From Planctomycetales bacterium (GTDB lineage: Bacteria; Planctomycetota; Planctomycetia; Pirellulales; Thermoguttaceae): DNA of 6,553 nt. The translations under genes were made by a program, and so were the position numbers. Under the pieces are notes generated by a model. The model was given only the letters and a program-made list of their open reading frames with translations, made no database searches and was not told the origin of the DNA. The DNA lies in NCBI GenBank assembly GCA_007127495.1, contig SKZG01000102.1, positions 1 to 6,553 of the forward strand, read 5' to 3'. Position 1 is the stretch's first letter, and every line of letters begins with the position of its first letter. Positions 1,689 through 6,322 of the stretch are shown here, in pieces.

Positions 1689-4600
1689 ATGCAAAGAACC
1701 CTCTGCAAAATTCGGCGACACGAAGAAGAGGCCGTCAAGGAAATGGGCCTGGTGCTCGACTTCGACGAAATCGCCCGAAAAGGCGCGATGACCCGCGAGG
1801 AAGCCTCCGTGGCCAAGTGGTACGGAATCTACAGTTCGCGGCAGCCGGGCAACCACATGGCGAGAGTAGTCATTCCGGGTGGGTGCCTGACGTCGGTGCA
1901 GGCGCGCGAGTTGGCGCGGCTTTCGATGAAGTACTCGCCGGACCGCATTTCGTTCACGACCCGGCAGAGCGCGCAACTGCACTGCTTGCAGCTTCCCGCT
2001 TTGGCAGGTTTTCTGCGCGAAATCCGGCAGGCTGGGCTCACCACGTTCCACGGCTGCGGCGACGTGACGCGCAACGTGGCGGCCTGCCCCTGGGCGTCGG
2101 TATGCCCCCACCGCCGCCTCGACGTGCTCCCCTATGCGCGGGCGGCGGCCCGTGAGCTTGCCGCGTGTCGCGAGTTGGACAATTTGCCGCGCAAGTTCAA
2201 GATCACGTTTTCGGGCTGCTCCGGCGATTGTGGGCAGCCGCATATCAACTGCGTGGGCGCCGTAGCCGTTACCCGGCAGATGCCCGACGGCTCCGAGCAA
2301 CCGGGGTTCGAGGTGCGCATTGGTGGCGGCATGGGCTGGCAACCGTTCATCGGTCAGTTGCTTTACGAGTTCGTGCCGCCGCAAACGATCGTTTCCCTGT
2401 GCCGCGCGGTCGGCCTGTTCTTTCGCGAGCACGGGGATCGCTACATCCGCATGGTCGCCCGCCTGAAGTTCGTGGTCCACCGTCGCGGCATCGACTTCTG
2501 CCGTCAGGAGATCGGCCGCATTCTCGACGCCGAGGGGGTCGATCGAAGCGGCATGGTGGAGCCCGGAAAAGCGGCCACCTCCGACGGCGCAATCGCCGAC
2601 ATCGGACCGCCTGTACCCGACCGTCCACTTCGCGAGCCGAATCCGGTGGGCACTGACGGGCTGGCGATTGTACGCATTAAGATTCCCAAGGGCGAAATGC
2701 GTTCCGACCACCTCGCCCGCATTGCCGACCTGGCTGAAATGTACGCTGACAAGCACGTGTACAGCACCAATCGGCAGAACCTCGAGCTGCATGGAATCGA
2801 GCCGTGCCGCGCCGAGACAGTGCGGGGCGAAATTGCCGCCCTCGGGCTCGATGCGAACGACTTTTTCGGCCTCAGCGACGTGGTCAGTTGCGTGGGCACC
2901 ACCTACTGCCCGCTGGCGGTGACAGAAACGCACGCCATGTTCGACGCGTTGCACGAAACCGTGTACGATCGGCGTTACGATCCGATTCGCGACAAGGTCA
3001 TCGTCAACATCACCGGGTGCCCGAATTCCTGCTCACCCTACCGCATTGCCGACATTGGGCTGCGCGGCATGCGCATTCGCGAGATGACCGGCTCTACGGA
3101 GGCGTACCAGGTTACGGTGGGCGGCGCCGAGAATCGGTTCGGCGACGTGTTGGGCGAGTACAAGTTCGATGATTGCGTGCCGGTCATCCGCACCGTGCTC
3201 GACACGTTCATGGCGGAGCGTACCGGCGAGGAGACGCTGGCCGACCACGTCGTCCGTGCCGGCATCGAGCCGTATCGGGCGACGGTGGGCGCGCTGGGCA
3301 TACGCTACGAGAAAGCACCGAACCCCGATGAGTACACCACGTTCACCGGCCGGGGGTCGGCCGCGCGCGACCGGAAGGCCGTCGCCCGCGACGTCCCTTG
3401 CCAGGAAGCGTGCCCCGCGAAGACGAACATCCCAGAGTATATACGCCATATTGCGCGCGGCAACCCGGAAGCGGCGCACCTGATCAATCAGGAAGACAAC
3501 GTGTTGCCGGGGGTGTTGGGACGCATTTGCTCGCGGCCGTGCGAGGCGCGCTGCCGCCACGAATGGACCAACATCGAGGGCCCGGTGCGCATCTGCCACC
3601 TGAAACGATCGGCCGCTGACGGCAAGCCGGCGAAGAGCCGCCCGCTGCCCGCCTGGTACGAGGCAAGCGGCAAGCGAGTGGCGATTGTCGGCGGCGGTCC
3701 GGCGGGCCTGGCTGCGGCCCGCGAACTGAAACGATATGGCCACAGCGTGACCCTGTTTGAGCGCGAGGCGTACCTGGGCGGCCAAATCCGCATCGGCGTG
3801 CCCCAGTTCCGGCTGCCGCGAGAGATCCTCGCCGAAGACATCGCGGCCGTCATCGACAGCGGCATCGAGGTGAAACGGAACGAGTCGTTCGACCATGAGC
3901 GGATTCTCCAGGCATTGGATCAGTTCGACGCCGTCGTACTGGCCGCCGGGGCGAACGTGCCCCGGGCGCTGGAACTCGACGGCCTGCCCGCCGGGGTAGC
4001 CATCGAGGGGCTCCGCTTCATGAAGCAGTATAACGACGGAAGCCCACGGAAGATCGAGGGCGACGTGGTCGTCATCGGCGGGGGTTTCACGGCCGTCGAC
4101 TGTTCCCGCAGCGCGCGCCGGTTGCTTGGCCCGGAAGCGAACGTATCGATCGTGTACCGCCGCGGCGAAGCGCAGATGGCGGCCAACCAGGAAGAACTCG
4201 AAGAAATGCGCCGCGAGAATATCCGGGTTGAAACCCTCGCGTCGCCCATCAGCGCCCGGACGGAAAACGGGCGGCTCCGCTCCGTGACCTTTCGCCGGAA
4301 CATCTTGGGCGAGCCCGACGGGGGCAAGCCCCGCTTCATTCCCGTCGCCGGCAGCGAGTTCAGCATCCCCTGCGATACGCTCATCTTCGCGATTGGCCAA
4401 ACTCAGGAGACGGGCCTGCTGCCCGAGGGCGCCGCGTTTACCGAGAACCACCACACTACGCTTTCCGGCCTGTTCGTTGCGGGCGATTACTGGTCCGGCA
4501 ATGCCGACGTCATCAATGCCTTGGCCGACGGCAAAGCGGCCTCCCATGCGATCGACGAGTTCCTCACGGGCGAGCGGCGGCGCCGCTCGTACTTGCACAT

Positions 4601-5045
4601 CGAGGAGGCGCCGCTGACCGGCCGGCTGCGCGACCACGACCTCCTCGAATCGCCCCCGATGCCTGTCTTGCCGCTGACCGAACGCGGCCTTTCTGATGAG
4701 GTCGAACAGGGCTTTACACCCGAGCAAACTGACACGCACGCTTGGCGCTGCTACCTGTGCAACCACAAATTCGAGATTGACCAGGACAAGTGCATCCATT
4801 GCGACTGGTGTATCCGCGTTTCGCCGAGGCAATGTATCCTCCGCCTGAGCAAGCTCGACTTGGACGCCGACGGCAGCCCGGTGCAATGGGTCGAGGAGCC
4901 CAAGTCGGCTCCGGAGCGCGCCACGTTCATCTGGATCGACAGCGACCAGTGCATCCGCTGCGGCAACTGCATTAACATTTGCCCGACCGGCGCCATTTCG
5001 CTACGGAAGGCCGATATCGCCTGGGAGAATTGCGCAGGGAAGTAG
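1689..5045 (+). CDS. Siroheme sulfite/nitrite reductase fused to GltD/DsrL-like NAD(P)-FAD oxidoreductase and ferredoxin domain
   Basis: One unbroken 1118-residue frame joins three modules. Residues 20-540 form a tandem-repeat siroheme reductase. The second repeat has the siroheme-[4Fe-4S] cysteines C401, C407, C444, C448 (CX5CX36CX3C). R92, R128, K169 and K171 align by motif with E. coli CysI active-site R83, R153, K215 and K217. Residues 565-960 are like the glutamate synthase small subunit: cysteines 571, 575, 614, 618, 622 and 636 for iron-sulfur clusters, an FAD-binding GGGPAG at 668-673, an NAD(P)-binding GGGFTA at 797-802 and the FAD-contacting GD at 932-933. Residues 1018-1118 are ferredoxin-like, with C1088, C1091, C1094, C1098 and an irregular first motif in which Ser1045 replaces the usual fourth Cys. 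Inferred role: cytoplasmic six-electron reduction of sulfite to sulfide or nitrite to ammonia with NAD(P)H, without separate partner subunits; no signal peptide or membrane segment is seen. Substrate cannot be decided. Start: ATG 1689 lacks a good Shine-Dalgarno; ATG 1743 (Met19), just before the conserved region, has AGAGG 11 nt upstream and is a serious alternative. Confidence 0.88.
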   Translation: MQRTLCKIRRHEEEAVKEMGLVLDFDEIARKGAMTREEASVAKWYGIYSSRQPGNHMARVVIPGGCLTSVQARELARLSMKYSPDRISFTTRQSAQLHCLQLPALAGFLREIRQAGLTTFHGCGDVTRNVAACPWASVCPHRRLDVLPYARAAARELAACRELDNLPRKFKITFSGCSGDCGQPHINCVGAVAVTRQMPDGSEQPGFEVRIGGGMGWQPFIGQLLYEFVPPQTIVSLCRAVGLFFREHGDRYIRMVARLKFVVHRRGIDFCRQEIGRILDAEGVDRSGMVEPGKAATSDGAIADIGPPVPDRPLREPNPVGTDGLAIVRIKIPKGEMRSDHLARIADLAEMYADKHVYSTNRQNLELHGIEPCRAETVRGEIAALGLDANDFFGLSDVVSCVGTTYCPLAVTETHAMFDALHETVYDRRYDPIRDKVIVNITGCPNSCSPYRIADIGLRGMRIREMTGSTEAYQVTVGGAENRFGDVLGEYKFDDCVPVIRTVLDTFMAERTGEETLADHVVRAGIEPYRATVGALGIRYEKAPNPDEYTTFTGRGSAARDRKAVARDVPCQEACPAKTNIPEYIRHIARGNPEAAHLINQEDNVLPGVLGRICSRPCEARCRHEWTNIEGPVRICHLKRSAADGKPAKSRPLPAWYEASGKRVAIVGGGPAGLAAARELKRYGHSVTLFEREAYLGGQIRIGVPQFRLPREILAEDIAAVIDSGIEVKRNESFDHERILQALDQFDAVVLAAGANVPRALELDGLPAGVAIEGLRFMKQYNDGSPRKIEGDVVVIGGGFTAVDCSRSARRLLGPEANVSIVYRRGEAQMAANQEELEEMRRENIRVETLASPISARTENGRLRSVTFRRNILGEPDGGKPRFIPVAGSEFSIPCDTLIFAIGQTQETGLLPEGAAFTENHHTTLSGLFVAGDYWSGNADVINALADGKAASHAIDEFLTGERRRRSYLHIEEAPLTGRLRDHDLLESPPMPVLPLTERGLSDEVEQGFTPEQTDTHAWRCYLCNHKFEIDQDKCIHCDWCIRVSPRQCILRLSKLDLDADGSPVQWVEEPKSAPERATFIWIDSDQCIRCGNCINICPTGAISLRKADIAWENCAGK

Positions 5046-5099: not shown

Positions 5100-5118
5100 C
5101 AACAGAGACCCGTCTCAT

Positions 5119-5124
5119 GGAGGG
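5119..5124 (+). promoter_or_regulatory. Ribosome binding site that sets the btaA start at 5132
   Basis: GGAGGG ends 7 nt before ATG 5132. The earlier in-frame ATG at 5117 overlaps this element and has no comparable site in front of it, and ATG 5085 is out of frame. This is the clearest Shine-Dalgarno in the window. Confidence 0.7.
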
Positions 5125-5131
5125 ATATTCG

Positions 5132-6322
5132 ATGGCGGTTGTCGATTGGTTCAGTTCCCGAGTGTTTAATCTCGTCCACCGGCACAACCTCGTGTACAAC
5201 ACCTGCTGGGAGGACCCCCGGCTGGACCGCGAAGCGCTGGACCTGGGCTCCGATGACACCGTGTTGGTCATCACGTCGGCCGGGTGCAACGCGCTGGACT
5301 ATGCCCTGGTGGAGCCGAAACACATCTACGCGGTCGATATGAACCCTCGGCAGAACGCCCTCTTGGAGCTGAAGCTGGCCGGTATTCGACAGCTCGATTA
5401 CCGCACCTTCTTCGATTTGTTCGGCCGGGGATACCTCCCCGCGGCCGGGGGGGTGTATCGTGACAAGCTGCGGGCGGACCTTTCACCGTTTGCCCAACGT
5501 TACTGGGACCGCCGGATCCGGTTCTTCACCAACCCGCGGCGGACATTCTTCTTTCGCGGCACGTCGGGTACGTTCGCCCGGCTGATGAACGTCTATATCA
5601 ACCGGGTTCTGCGTTTGCGGCCCTGGGTCGATGCGATCCTTCAAGCAGGCAGCATTGAAGAGCAGCGAGACATCTATGAGCAGCGCATTCGCGACCGGCT
5701 TTGGACCCGATCCATGCGGTTTGCCATGAACCGCGATACCACCTTGTCGCTCGTCGGGGTCCCCAAGGCACAGCGACGGCAGGTCGAACAGCAGTATGAC
5801 GGCAAGATTGCCAACTTCGTACGAGAGTGTCTGGAGGCCGTGCTCACAAAACTCCCGCTCGCCGACAACTACTTCTGGCGCGTGTACATCAACGGCGAAT
5901 ACTCGACCCATTGTTGCCCGGAATACCTTAAAGAGGAGAACTTCGAGCGGCTCAAGGGCGGGTTGGCCGAACGAGTGACCGCGCACACCGAATCGGTCCA
6001 GGGCTTCCTGGAAAAGCATGATGTGGCCATTTCGCGGTTTGTCCTGCTGGATCACATGGACTGGCTTTCCGATCAGTTCTTCCCGCTGCTCGAAGCGGAG
6101 TGGCAGGCGATCGTCGATCGGGCCACACCCGACGCTCGCATCATTTGGCGCAGCGGCGGTACGCAAACCGCGTTCGTCGACCGGGTGTGCGTTCAGGTGA
6201 ACGGCCAAACCCAATCCGTTGGCGAGCTACTGCGTTACCACCGCGATTTGGCTGAACGGCTTCATCGGCAGTGCCGGGTGCATACGTACGGTAGCTTCTA
6301 TATTGCCGACCTGGCAGCATGA
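5132..6322 (+). CDS. btaA: BtaA-like S-adenosylmethionine:diacylglycerol 3-amino-3-carboxypropyltransferase (DUF3419)
   Basis: The 396-residue product belongs to the DUF3419/BtaA family. BtaA transfers the 3-amino-3-carboxypropyl group of S-adenosylmethionine to diacylglycerol, giving diacylglyceryl-homoserine, the precursor of the phosphorus-free betaine lipid DGTS; it acts at the inner face of the membrane. Family signatures seen are YNTCWEDPRLD at 22-32, a Rossmann-type AdoMet site with ITSAGCNALDYAL (47-59) followed by the acidic strand end IYAVDMNPRQNALLELKLA (65-83), and LLDHMDWL at 305-312. Length is close to that of characterised bacterial BtaA (around 400). The start at 5132 is preferred over 5117 because of the GGAGGG seven bases upstream. 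The N-methyltransferase BtaB, which completes DGTS, is not next to it: the following gene is convergent and unrelated. Not all DUF3419 proteins have been tested, so activity is a family-based inference. The stop codon lies in the left arm of a large inverted repeat. Confidence 0.85.
   Translation: MAVVDWFSSRVFNLVHRHNLVYNTCWEDPRLDREALDLGSDDTVLVITSAGCNALDYALVEPKHIYAVDMNPRQNALLELKLAGIRQLDYRTFFDLFGRGYLPAAGGVYRDKLRADLSPFAQRYWDRRIRFFTNPRRTFFFRGTSGTFARLMNVYINRVLRLRPWVDAILQAGSIEEQRDIYEQRIRDRLWTRSMRFAMNRDTTLSLVGVPKAQRRQVEQQYDGKIANFVRECLEAVLTKLPLADNYFWRVYINGEYSTHCCPEYLKEENFERLKGGLAERVTAHTESVQGFLEKHDVAISRFVLLDHMDWLSDQFFPLLEAEWQAIVDRATPDARIIWRSGGTQTAFVDRVCVQVNGQTQSVGELLRYHRDLAERLHRQCRVHTYGSFYIADLAA

Follow-up and report, generated by a model that had tools for sequence, protein, structure and literature searches.

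Positions 1689 to 5045 of the forward strand of the window, the entire 6553-base contig C456 of the Planctomycetales metagenome-assembled genome (MAG) G000, hold one uninterrupted frame of 1118 amino acids (aa) with zero internal stops, which we propose encodes a siroheme reductase that passes electrons from NADPH to sulfite within one chain, carries a siroheme-cluster motif in each half of its reductase body and likely provides sulfide for cysteine. In this reading, to which we assign a probability of roughly two in three, the protein is an analogue of the DsrAB–DsrL system with an assimilatory-type active site. It builds on motifs, conservation, tree topology and gene context that were observed directly and on a predicted fold, from which we infer the cofactors, electron donor, product and role. 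The order of Pfam domains along the protein (NIR_SIR and NIR_SIR_ferr in two stretches each, Fer4_20, Pyr_redox_2 and Fer4/Fer4_7), together with the frame and the homologues, bears out a preliminary description of this DNA, which had claimed that one intact frame encodes a siroheme reductase joined to a GltD/DsrL-like FAD/NAD(P) module and, at its end, to a ferredoxin tail. The conserved enzyme family is real, and we found no characterised member of it in the open literature. Its surprising element is the two-motif reductase body; the single-chain NAD(P)H link alone puts known parts together in a new way, and no description of a single-chain two-motif reductase or of this fusion was found in the open-access literature.

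Two cluster motifs in one reductase body

A scan for cysteine spacing found the siroheme-cluster motif CX5C...CX3C twice. The C-terminal half of the reductase (residues ~310–530, 2616..3278), which is equivalent to aSir-b or DsrB and is the predicted holder of the catalytic siroheme, carries C401-x5-C407 (2889..2909) and C444-x3-C448 (3018..3032), all four being Cys in 121/121 aligned rows. The N-terminal half (residues ~40–300, 1806..2588; Pfam NIR_SIR at 124–276), equivalent to aSir-a or DsrA, carries the additional copy as C133-x5-C139 (2085..2105) and C177-x3-C181 (2217..2231). The preliminary description had placed the C-half quartet and the active-site residues correctly, and had missed this N-half quartet. 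It reads CCCC in 119 of the 121 fused rows, the other two being one gap and one CCCR, and each of its cysteines is also present in 109/109 shorter relatives, which were picked by length (420–560 aa) from 120 listed and may include some fragments of fused proteins. The two halves of the protein are homologous to each other (BLASTP E 9e-12; hhalign probability 99.1).

According to the available sections of PMC10229431, assimilatory sulfite reductases (aSirs) retained one active siroheme–[4Fe–4S] and lost the other motif, and DsrAB, with its two chains, keeps a functional site and a structural one. The fused protein resembles the aSirs in its two half-domains in one chain, the CX5CXnCX3C motif of its C-half and its Arg/Arg/Lys/Lys set, and differs from these enzymes with one siroheme site (PMC10229431, same sections) in having kept the N-half motif. 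In the alignment, tobacco nitrite reductase lacks all four N-half cysteines, and five NirA-type and ten CysI-type rows lack the full quartet. With a cluster motif in each half the fused protein is instead like DsrAB, as both DsrA rows carry all four cysteines in the same columns. In contrast to DsrAB and DsrL, which take three genes, it is one chain; it has Arg at position 92 where the DsrA rows have Thr, the assimilatory CX5C...CX3C spacing in its C-half where DsrB has CXnCCX3C, and a sulfur-assimilation gene context. The reductase body as a whole is of the full two-half NirA/CysI type; it scores 125.2 bits against the CysI (TIGR02041) cut-off of 756.55.

If the N-half quartet serves as it does in DsrA, it would hold a second, structural siroheme–[4Fe–4S], and a non-catalytic cofactor of this kind is its most likely occupant judging from the alignment. 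The second site would be non-catalytic because the C-half positions that partner it keep only part of the substrate set, with R362 kept in 119/121 rows, S396 variable and position 438 Ile, Leu or Val in 116/121. This partial set also suits an alternative in which the N-half cysteines bind [4Fe–4S] only, without siroheme, and relay to the C-half's catalytic siroheme the electrons supplied by flavoprotein and ferredoxin, since a site with variable S396 and mostly hydrophobic I438 does not require a reactive siroheme; the enzyme moreover has several other cluster motifs. Two points weigh against a second siroheme: a conserved quartet could hold a plain [4Fe–4S], and the predicted local distance difference test score (pLDDT) of the structural model falls to 78 in the block 121–130 adjoining the first cysteine pair, a stretch of lower confidence. 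However, the N-half motif is exactly of the siroheme-cluster type, sits in a half-domain that is duplicated by the same hhalign probability of 99.1, and aligns with DsrA, which holds the cofactor there (PMC10229431, same sections). We consider the relay doubtful, if deserving of some weight, and retain the second, non-catalytic siroheme–[4Fe–4S].

The two-motif state is not unique to the fused family, an idea that we rejected, as it also occurs in other relatives of 651–921 aa and in L123–L125 and L127–L129. The former are NirA-like proteins with the cluster motif in both halves (L046, L055, L065, L067, L069, L072, L073, L076, L082, L084, L087, L088, L089 and L094; frames of 651–921 aa), some of which have Cx4C in the second N-half pair. 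The latter are two-motif reductases of 33–37% identity from the phylum of a Kiritimatiellia member; their sister L126 lacks the whole N-half quartet, a natural loss.

Sulfite would be held by the N-half residues R92 (1962..1964; Thr in the two DsrA rows), R128 (2070..2072) and the sulfite-reductase-type pair K169-x-K171 (2193..2201) for six-electron reduction at the C-half siroheme. These four positions read RRKK in 118/121 rows, the remaining three being gapped at one or more of them. Arg at position 92 and the assimilatory C-half spacing go with six-electron reduction to sulfide (PMC10229431, same sections). The lysine pair points to sulfite rather than nitrite as the substrate: K171 is Lys in 120 of the 121 fused rows (one gap) and in all 109 shorter rows, whereas Asn takes its place in the five rows of NirA-type nitrite reductases and in L062/L063. 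An NAD(P)H nitrite reductase would fit the nearest solved folds, which include NirA-type and plant nitrite reductases, and siroheme enzymes can accept both substrates, as Fsr does (PMC10229431, same sections). K171 and a gene context in which the identified recurrent neighbours are sulfur genes nevertheless make the nitrite reading unlikely, and we give it only a slim chance.

The electron-input module and the fusion

Behind the reductase follow a Fer4_20 domain matched by Pfam (residues 567–646, 3387..3626) with C571, C575, C614, C618, C622 and C636, the FAD and NAD(P) Rossmann domains (Pyr_redox_2, residues 663–947, 3675..4529; GGGPAG at 668–673 and GGGFTA at 797–802), and a ferredoxin-like tail (4749..5000) with C1035/1038/1041/1049 and C1088/1091/1094/1098, in which Fer4/Fer4_7 match residues 1034–1104. 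Just before the tail ferredoxin lie two extra cysteines, C1021 and C1024 (4749–4760), which are invariant in 121/121 rows. The YRR motif of the Rossmann module (residues 823–825, 4155..4163), likewise found in 121/121 rows, is an NADP(H)-type motif in NfnB and DsrL-2 according to the available sections of PMC7596348 and predicts NADPH as the donor. Electrons would pass from NADPH to the FAD of this module, from there to the module's iron–sulfur clusters and the ferredoxin tail, and then on to the siroheme–[4Fe–4S] of the C-half.

By the criteria given in those sections of PMC7596348 the module is like DsrL, with a Fer4 domain, an FAD/NAD(P) body, a linker and a C-terminal two-cluster ferredoxin in this order, and with DsrL-2 it shares the YRR motif. 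A DsrL-like fragment located next to Pirellulaceae dsrAB matches the module at 35% identity over 314 aa. One Pirellulaceae genome (G455; L016, L091, L110) has dsrA and dsrB above cut-off with an adjoining DsrL-like gene, plus a fused-family copy; of the three PF01077 matches of G000, the two listed (on C147 and C456) are not DsrAB, in a MAG that is 84% complete. NfnB, NfnABC and StnABC differ from the fused protein in being parts of electron-bifurcating transhydrogenases, without a siroheme reductase.

The preliminary description had cast the protein as an NAD(P)H counterpart of Fsr. This stands as an analogy, in that an electron-input flavoprotein is fused to a siroheme reductase, with the domain order opposite to that of Fsr as had been claimed; it fails for the reductase itself, which in Fsr is half-size, Dsr-like and works as a dimer (PMC10229431, same sections), as against the full two-half body here. 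An F420 module as in Fsr is ruled out, being absent from the Pfam architecture. CysI, NirA and the plant sulfite and nitrite reductase types use separate electron partners, and NirB and fungal nitrite reductase are single-chain NAD(P)H siroheme reductases with an N-terminal flavin module and nitrite as substrate. Against these last two the novelty once seen in a single-chain NAD(P)H link to siroheme does not hold; the fused protein is nonetheless not a NirB, as it scores 79.7 bits against the TIGR02374 cut-off of 578.35.

The linker at which the two enzymes are fused (residues 530–566, 3276..3386) is also the stop/start junction of the split homologues. An assembly or frameshift artefact near residues 530–570 could be suspected because the window takes up an entire contig of 6553 bases (GC content 0.63, like the 0.61–0.68 of eight other loci of the genome) in a MAG that is 84% complete and split into 592 contigs (3.17 Mb, contamination 1.1%), and the preliminary description had singled out residues 540–565 for such a fault. 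However, at least 95% of the query is covered by 115 of the 120 listed homologues (identity 55–100%, one of the 120 being the window's own protein), among them the full-length clusters P0003 and P0004 at 83–85% identity to it. The AlphaFold2 model (128-row alignment, mean pLDDT 93.1) keeps a pLDDT of 91–97 in the ten-residue blocks of 521–580. Complete fused frames occur in 11 genome-contig loci, and all eight matches in the phylum of a Hydrogenedentes member lie in frames of at least 1106 aa. Independent fused homologues rule out an assembly join near residue 540, and we regard the chance of an artefact as negligible.

Neither did the homologues turn out to be limited to fused genes, nor to separate ones, as the preliminary description had allowed; split pairs and lone reductases exist beside the fusions. 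The 11 complete fused frames come from 27 fetched genome-contig loci, in 10 of which two separate frames are found; L016 has a fused frame cut at the contig end, L025 and L027 show the partner next door, and L018, L031 and L033 are cut off by contig ends. In six split pairs (L020, L021, L022, L023, L026 and L030) the two frames share 4 bases, given the start codons picked by script. Reductase and flavoprotein genes are a tight neighbouring pair elsewhere and therefore the fusion joins two already paired genes. The pairing is not universal, which speaks against too general a link between the two: an orthologous flavoprotein was not found in G443, which is 99% complete (best match 39%), and its stand-alone reductase L140 (G443:C176, 4016–5611, − strand) branches from within the fused ones in the tree, which would mean a change of partner or a renewed split.

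Homologues are spread over several phyla, and their frequency is low. At E 1e-80, 2/392 genomes of the Planctomycetota sample have one. Among close relatives the count is 6/60, which includes the window's own genome and one tail fragment. The phylum of the Hydrogenedentes member has matches in 8/68 genomes, and that of the Kiritimatiellia member in 13/240, six at 51% identity or more and seven distant at 33–37%.

Gene context and physiological role

In a comparison of 29 loci a cysteine synthase cluster gene is found in 11, a cystathionine gamma-synthase-type gene in 5 and CysH in 4. The name cysK rests on two members of this cluster above the curated cut-off (L020 and L038), and in L037 and L038, from two genomes of the window's own family, the cysK-cluster gene is directly upstream of the fused gene. 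L030 also carries CysD and CysN, a Sat/APS-kinase gene lies near a partial copy in L142, and beyond the four counted, CysH is near the gene in G453 (L014) and G464 (L027). All PF01077 matches sit in this protein in 12/23 genomes, 10 of which have CysH above cut-off. Because of the neighbouring cysK, cysH and sulfate-activation genes, and because no siroheme reductase besides this one was found in 12/23 genomes, a role in sulfur assimilation is indicated, and the supply of sulfide for cysteine synthesis is likely.

Several observations weigh against this role. CysH was not seen in G447 and G466, two of the 12 single-reductase genomes; the window genome also has CysI with CysJ on another contig, so that the fused enzyme as sole assimilatory enzyme of this organism is rejected; and the neighbours of the fused gene in the window, HydG and a DUF3419 protein, include no sulfur genes. 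A reductase that detoxifies sulfite or acts on multiple substrates in the manner of Fsr, with assimilation secondary, would accommodate both the CysI and CysJ pair and the neighbours in the window. It would not account as readily for cysK, cysH and sulfate-activation neighbours in relatives, including cysK directly upstream in L037 and L038, or for the 12/23 genomes in which this is the only siroheme reductase found, and we regard it as improbable, while favouring sulfide for cysteine synthesis. Contig C323 of the window genome carries CysH and a siroheme-synthase-type methylase.

HydG, an [FeFe]-hydrogenase maturase, lies divergent from the fused gene at 86–1513 (−) and scores 467 bits, above cut-off. 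No HydF over cut-off was found in the 84%-complete window genome (best 90 against 326 bits), and HydG is without a visible partner set there, HydF being the only partner looked for and HydE and the hydrogenase not searched. The DUF3419 protein, downstream at 5117–6322 (+) with 399 bits, is possibly betaine-lipid BtaA-like; no sulfur link was seen.

Evolution of the two-motif state

The two-motif state was placed on a maximum-likelihood tree of 66 hand-picked rows, from which the eight cluster-cysteine columns were removed and which was rooted on joined DsrA+DsrB; the outgroup pair L091 is dsrA/dsrB above curated cut-offs, and pair L083 is assigned from gene order and cysteine pattern only. The fragments L052 and L054 and near copies were omitted, and the placement of the long rows L053, L005 and L077 is uncertain. 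Both deep branches are held by two-motif rows, and the motif label requires four changes, the single-motif groups being a clade that holds the NirA and CysI types together with rows L062, L063 and L077; L126; L074/L079; and L071/L078. Uniting all single-motif rows is rejected by the approximately unbiased (AU) test (p-AU 2.8e-7). The two-motif state would thus be ancestral by the DsrAB-rooted tree, with a root that is weakly supported. The direction of motif change rests on DsrAB as the outgroup, the root branches have support of only 86/58 and 85/58, the AU test was run post hoc, with the tree already known, and one gain of the second motif would be enough if the root lay within the single-motif clade; all of these points count against an ancestral two-motif state.

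Partial quartets remain in the N-halves of single-motif rows, with three of four cysteines in L062/L063 and L077, two in L074/L079, and, in the alignment, Cys at two of the four positions in 9/10 CysI rows. L074 (886–3438, +), which like L079 has lost two of the four, also has a TusA sulfurtransferase domain fused at its C-terminus.

Of the sets compared, this family has by median the halves that have diverged least. Its halves match each other by BLASTP at E 2e-19 to 1e-8, whereas CysI halves reach 25 bits or less; that NirA-type halves also match each other, at up to 38.5 bits, detracts from the distinction. With cysteines masked, the half-against-half medians are 42.7 bits for the fused, 48.1 for the stand-alone, 31.6 for the NirA and 18.1 for the CysI types. 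Similarity from shared cysteines only was thereby rejected, as masking keeps the gap to the CysI types, although the gap to NirA shrinks from 20 to ~11 bits (medians).

In the published account (PMC10229431, same sections), an enzyme with one site was duplicated and fused to give the single-chain assimilatory reductases, which afterwards retained one siroheme–[4Fe–4S]. Most likely the single-chain reductases began with two cofactor sites, both of which the fused family kept and one of which the NirA and CysI types lost. Whether the fused family is moreover a relic that survives from the two-siroheme ancestor shared by all single-chain sulfite and nitrite reductases, with a catalytic and a structural siroheme–[4Fe–4S] and a DsrL-like NADPH module, we consider evenly balanced.

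The family is easily overlooked because the names that different sources give it are inconsistent ('sulfite reductase beta subunit-like hemoprotein/NADPH-dependent glutamate synthase beta subunit-', 'FAD-dependent oxidoreductase' and 'formate dehydrogenase major subunit'). For the 12/23 genomes in which its protein is the only siroheme reductase found, it offers a predicted assimilatory sulfite reductase that draws on NADPH, and a single-chain protein with both motifs and the least-diverged halves makes the inferred intermediate testable in the laboratory. If it is indeed a relic, the so far only inferred path of duplicating, fusing and then losing one site would have led by way of a stable enzyme with two cofactors, one that persists in several bacterial phyla and serves cysteine synthesis there to this day.

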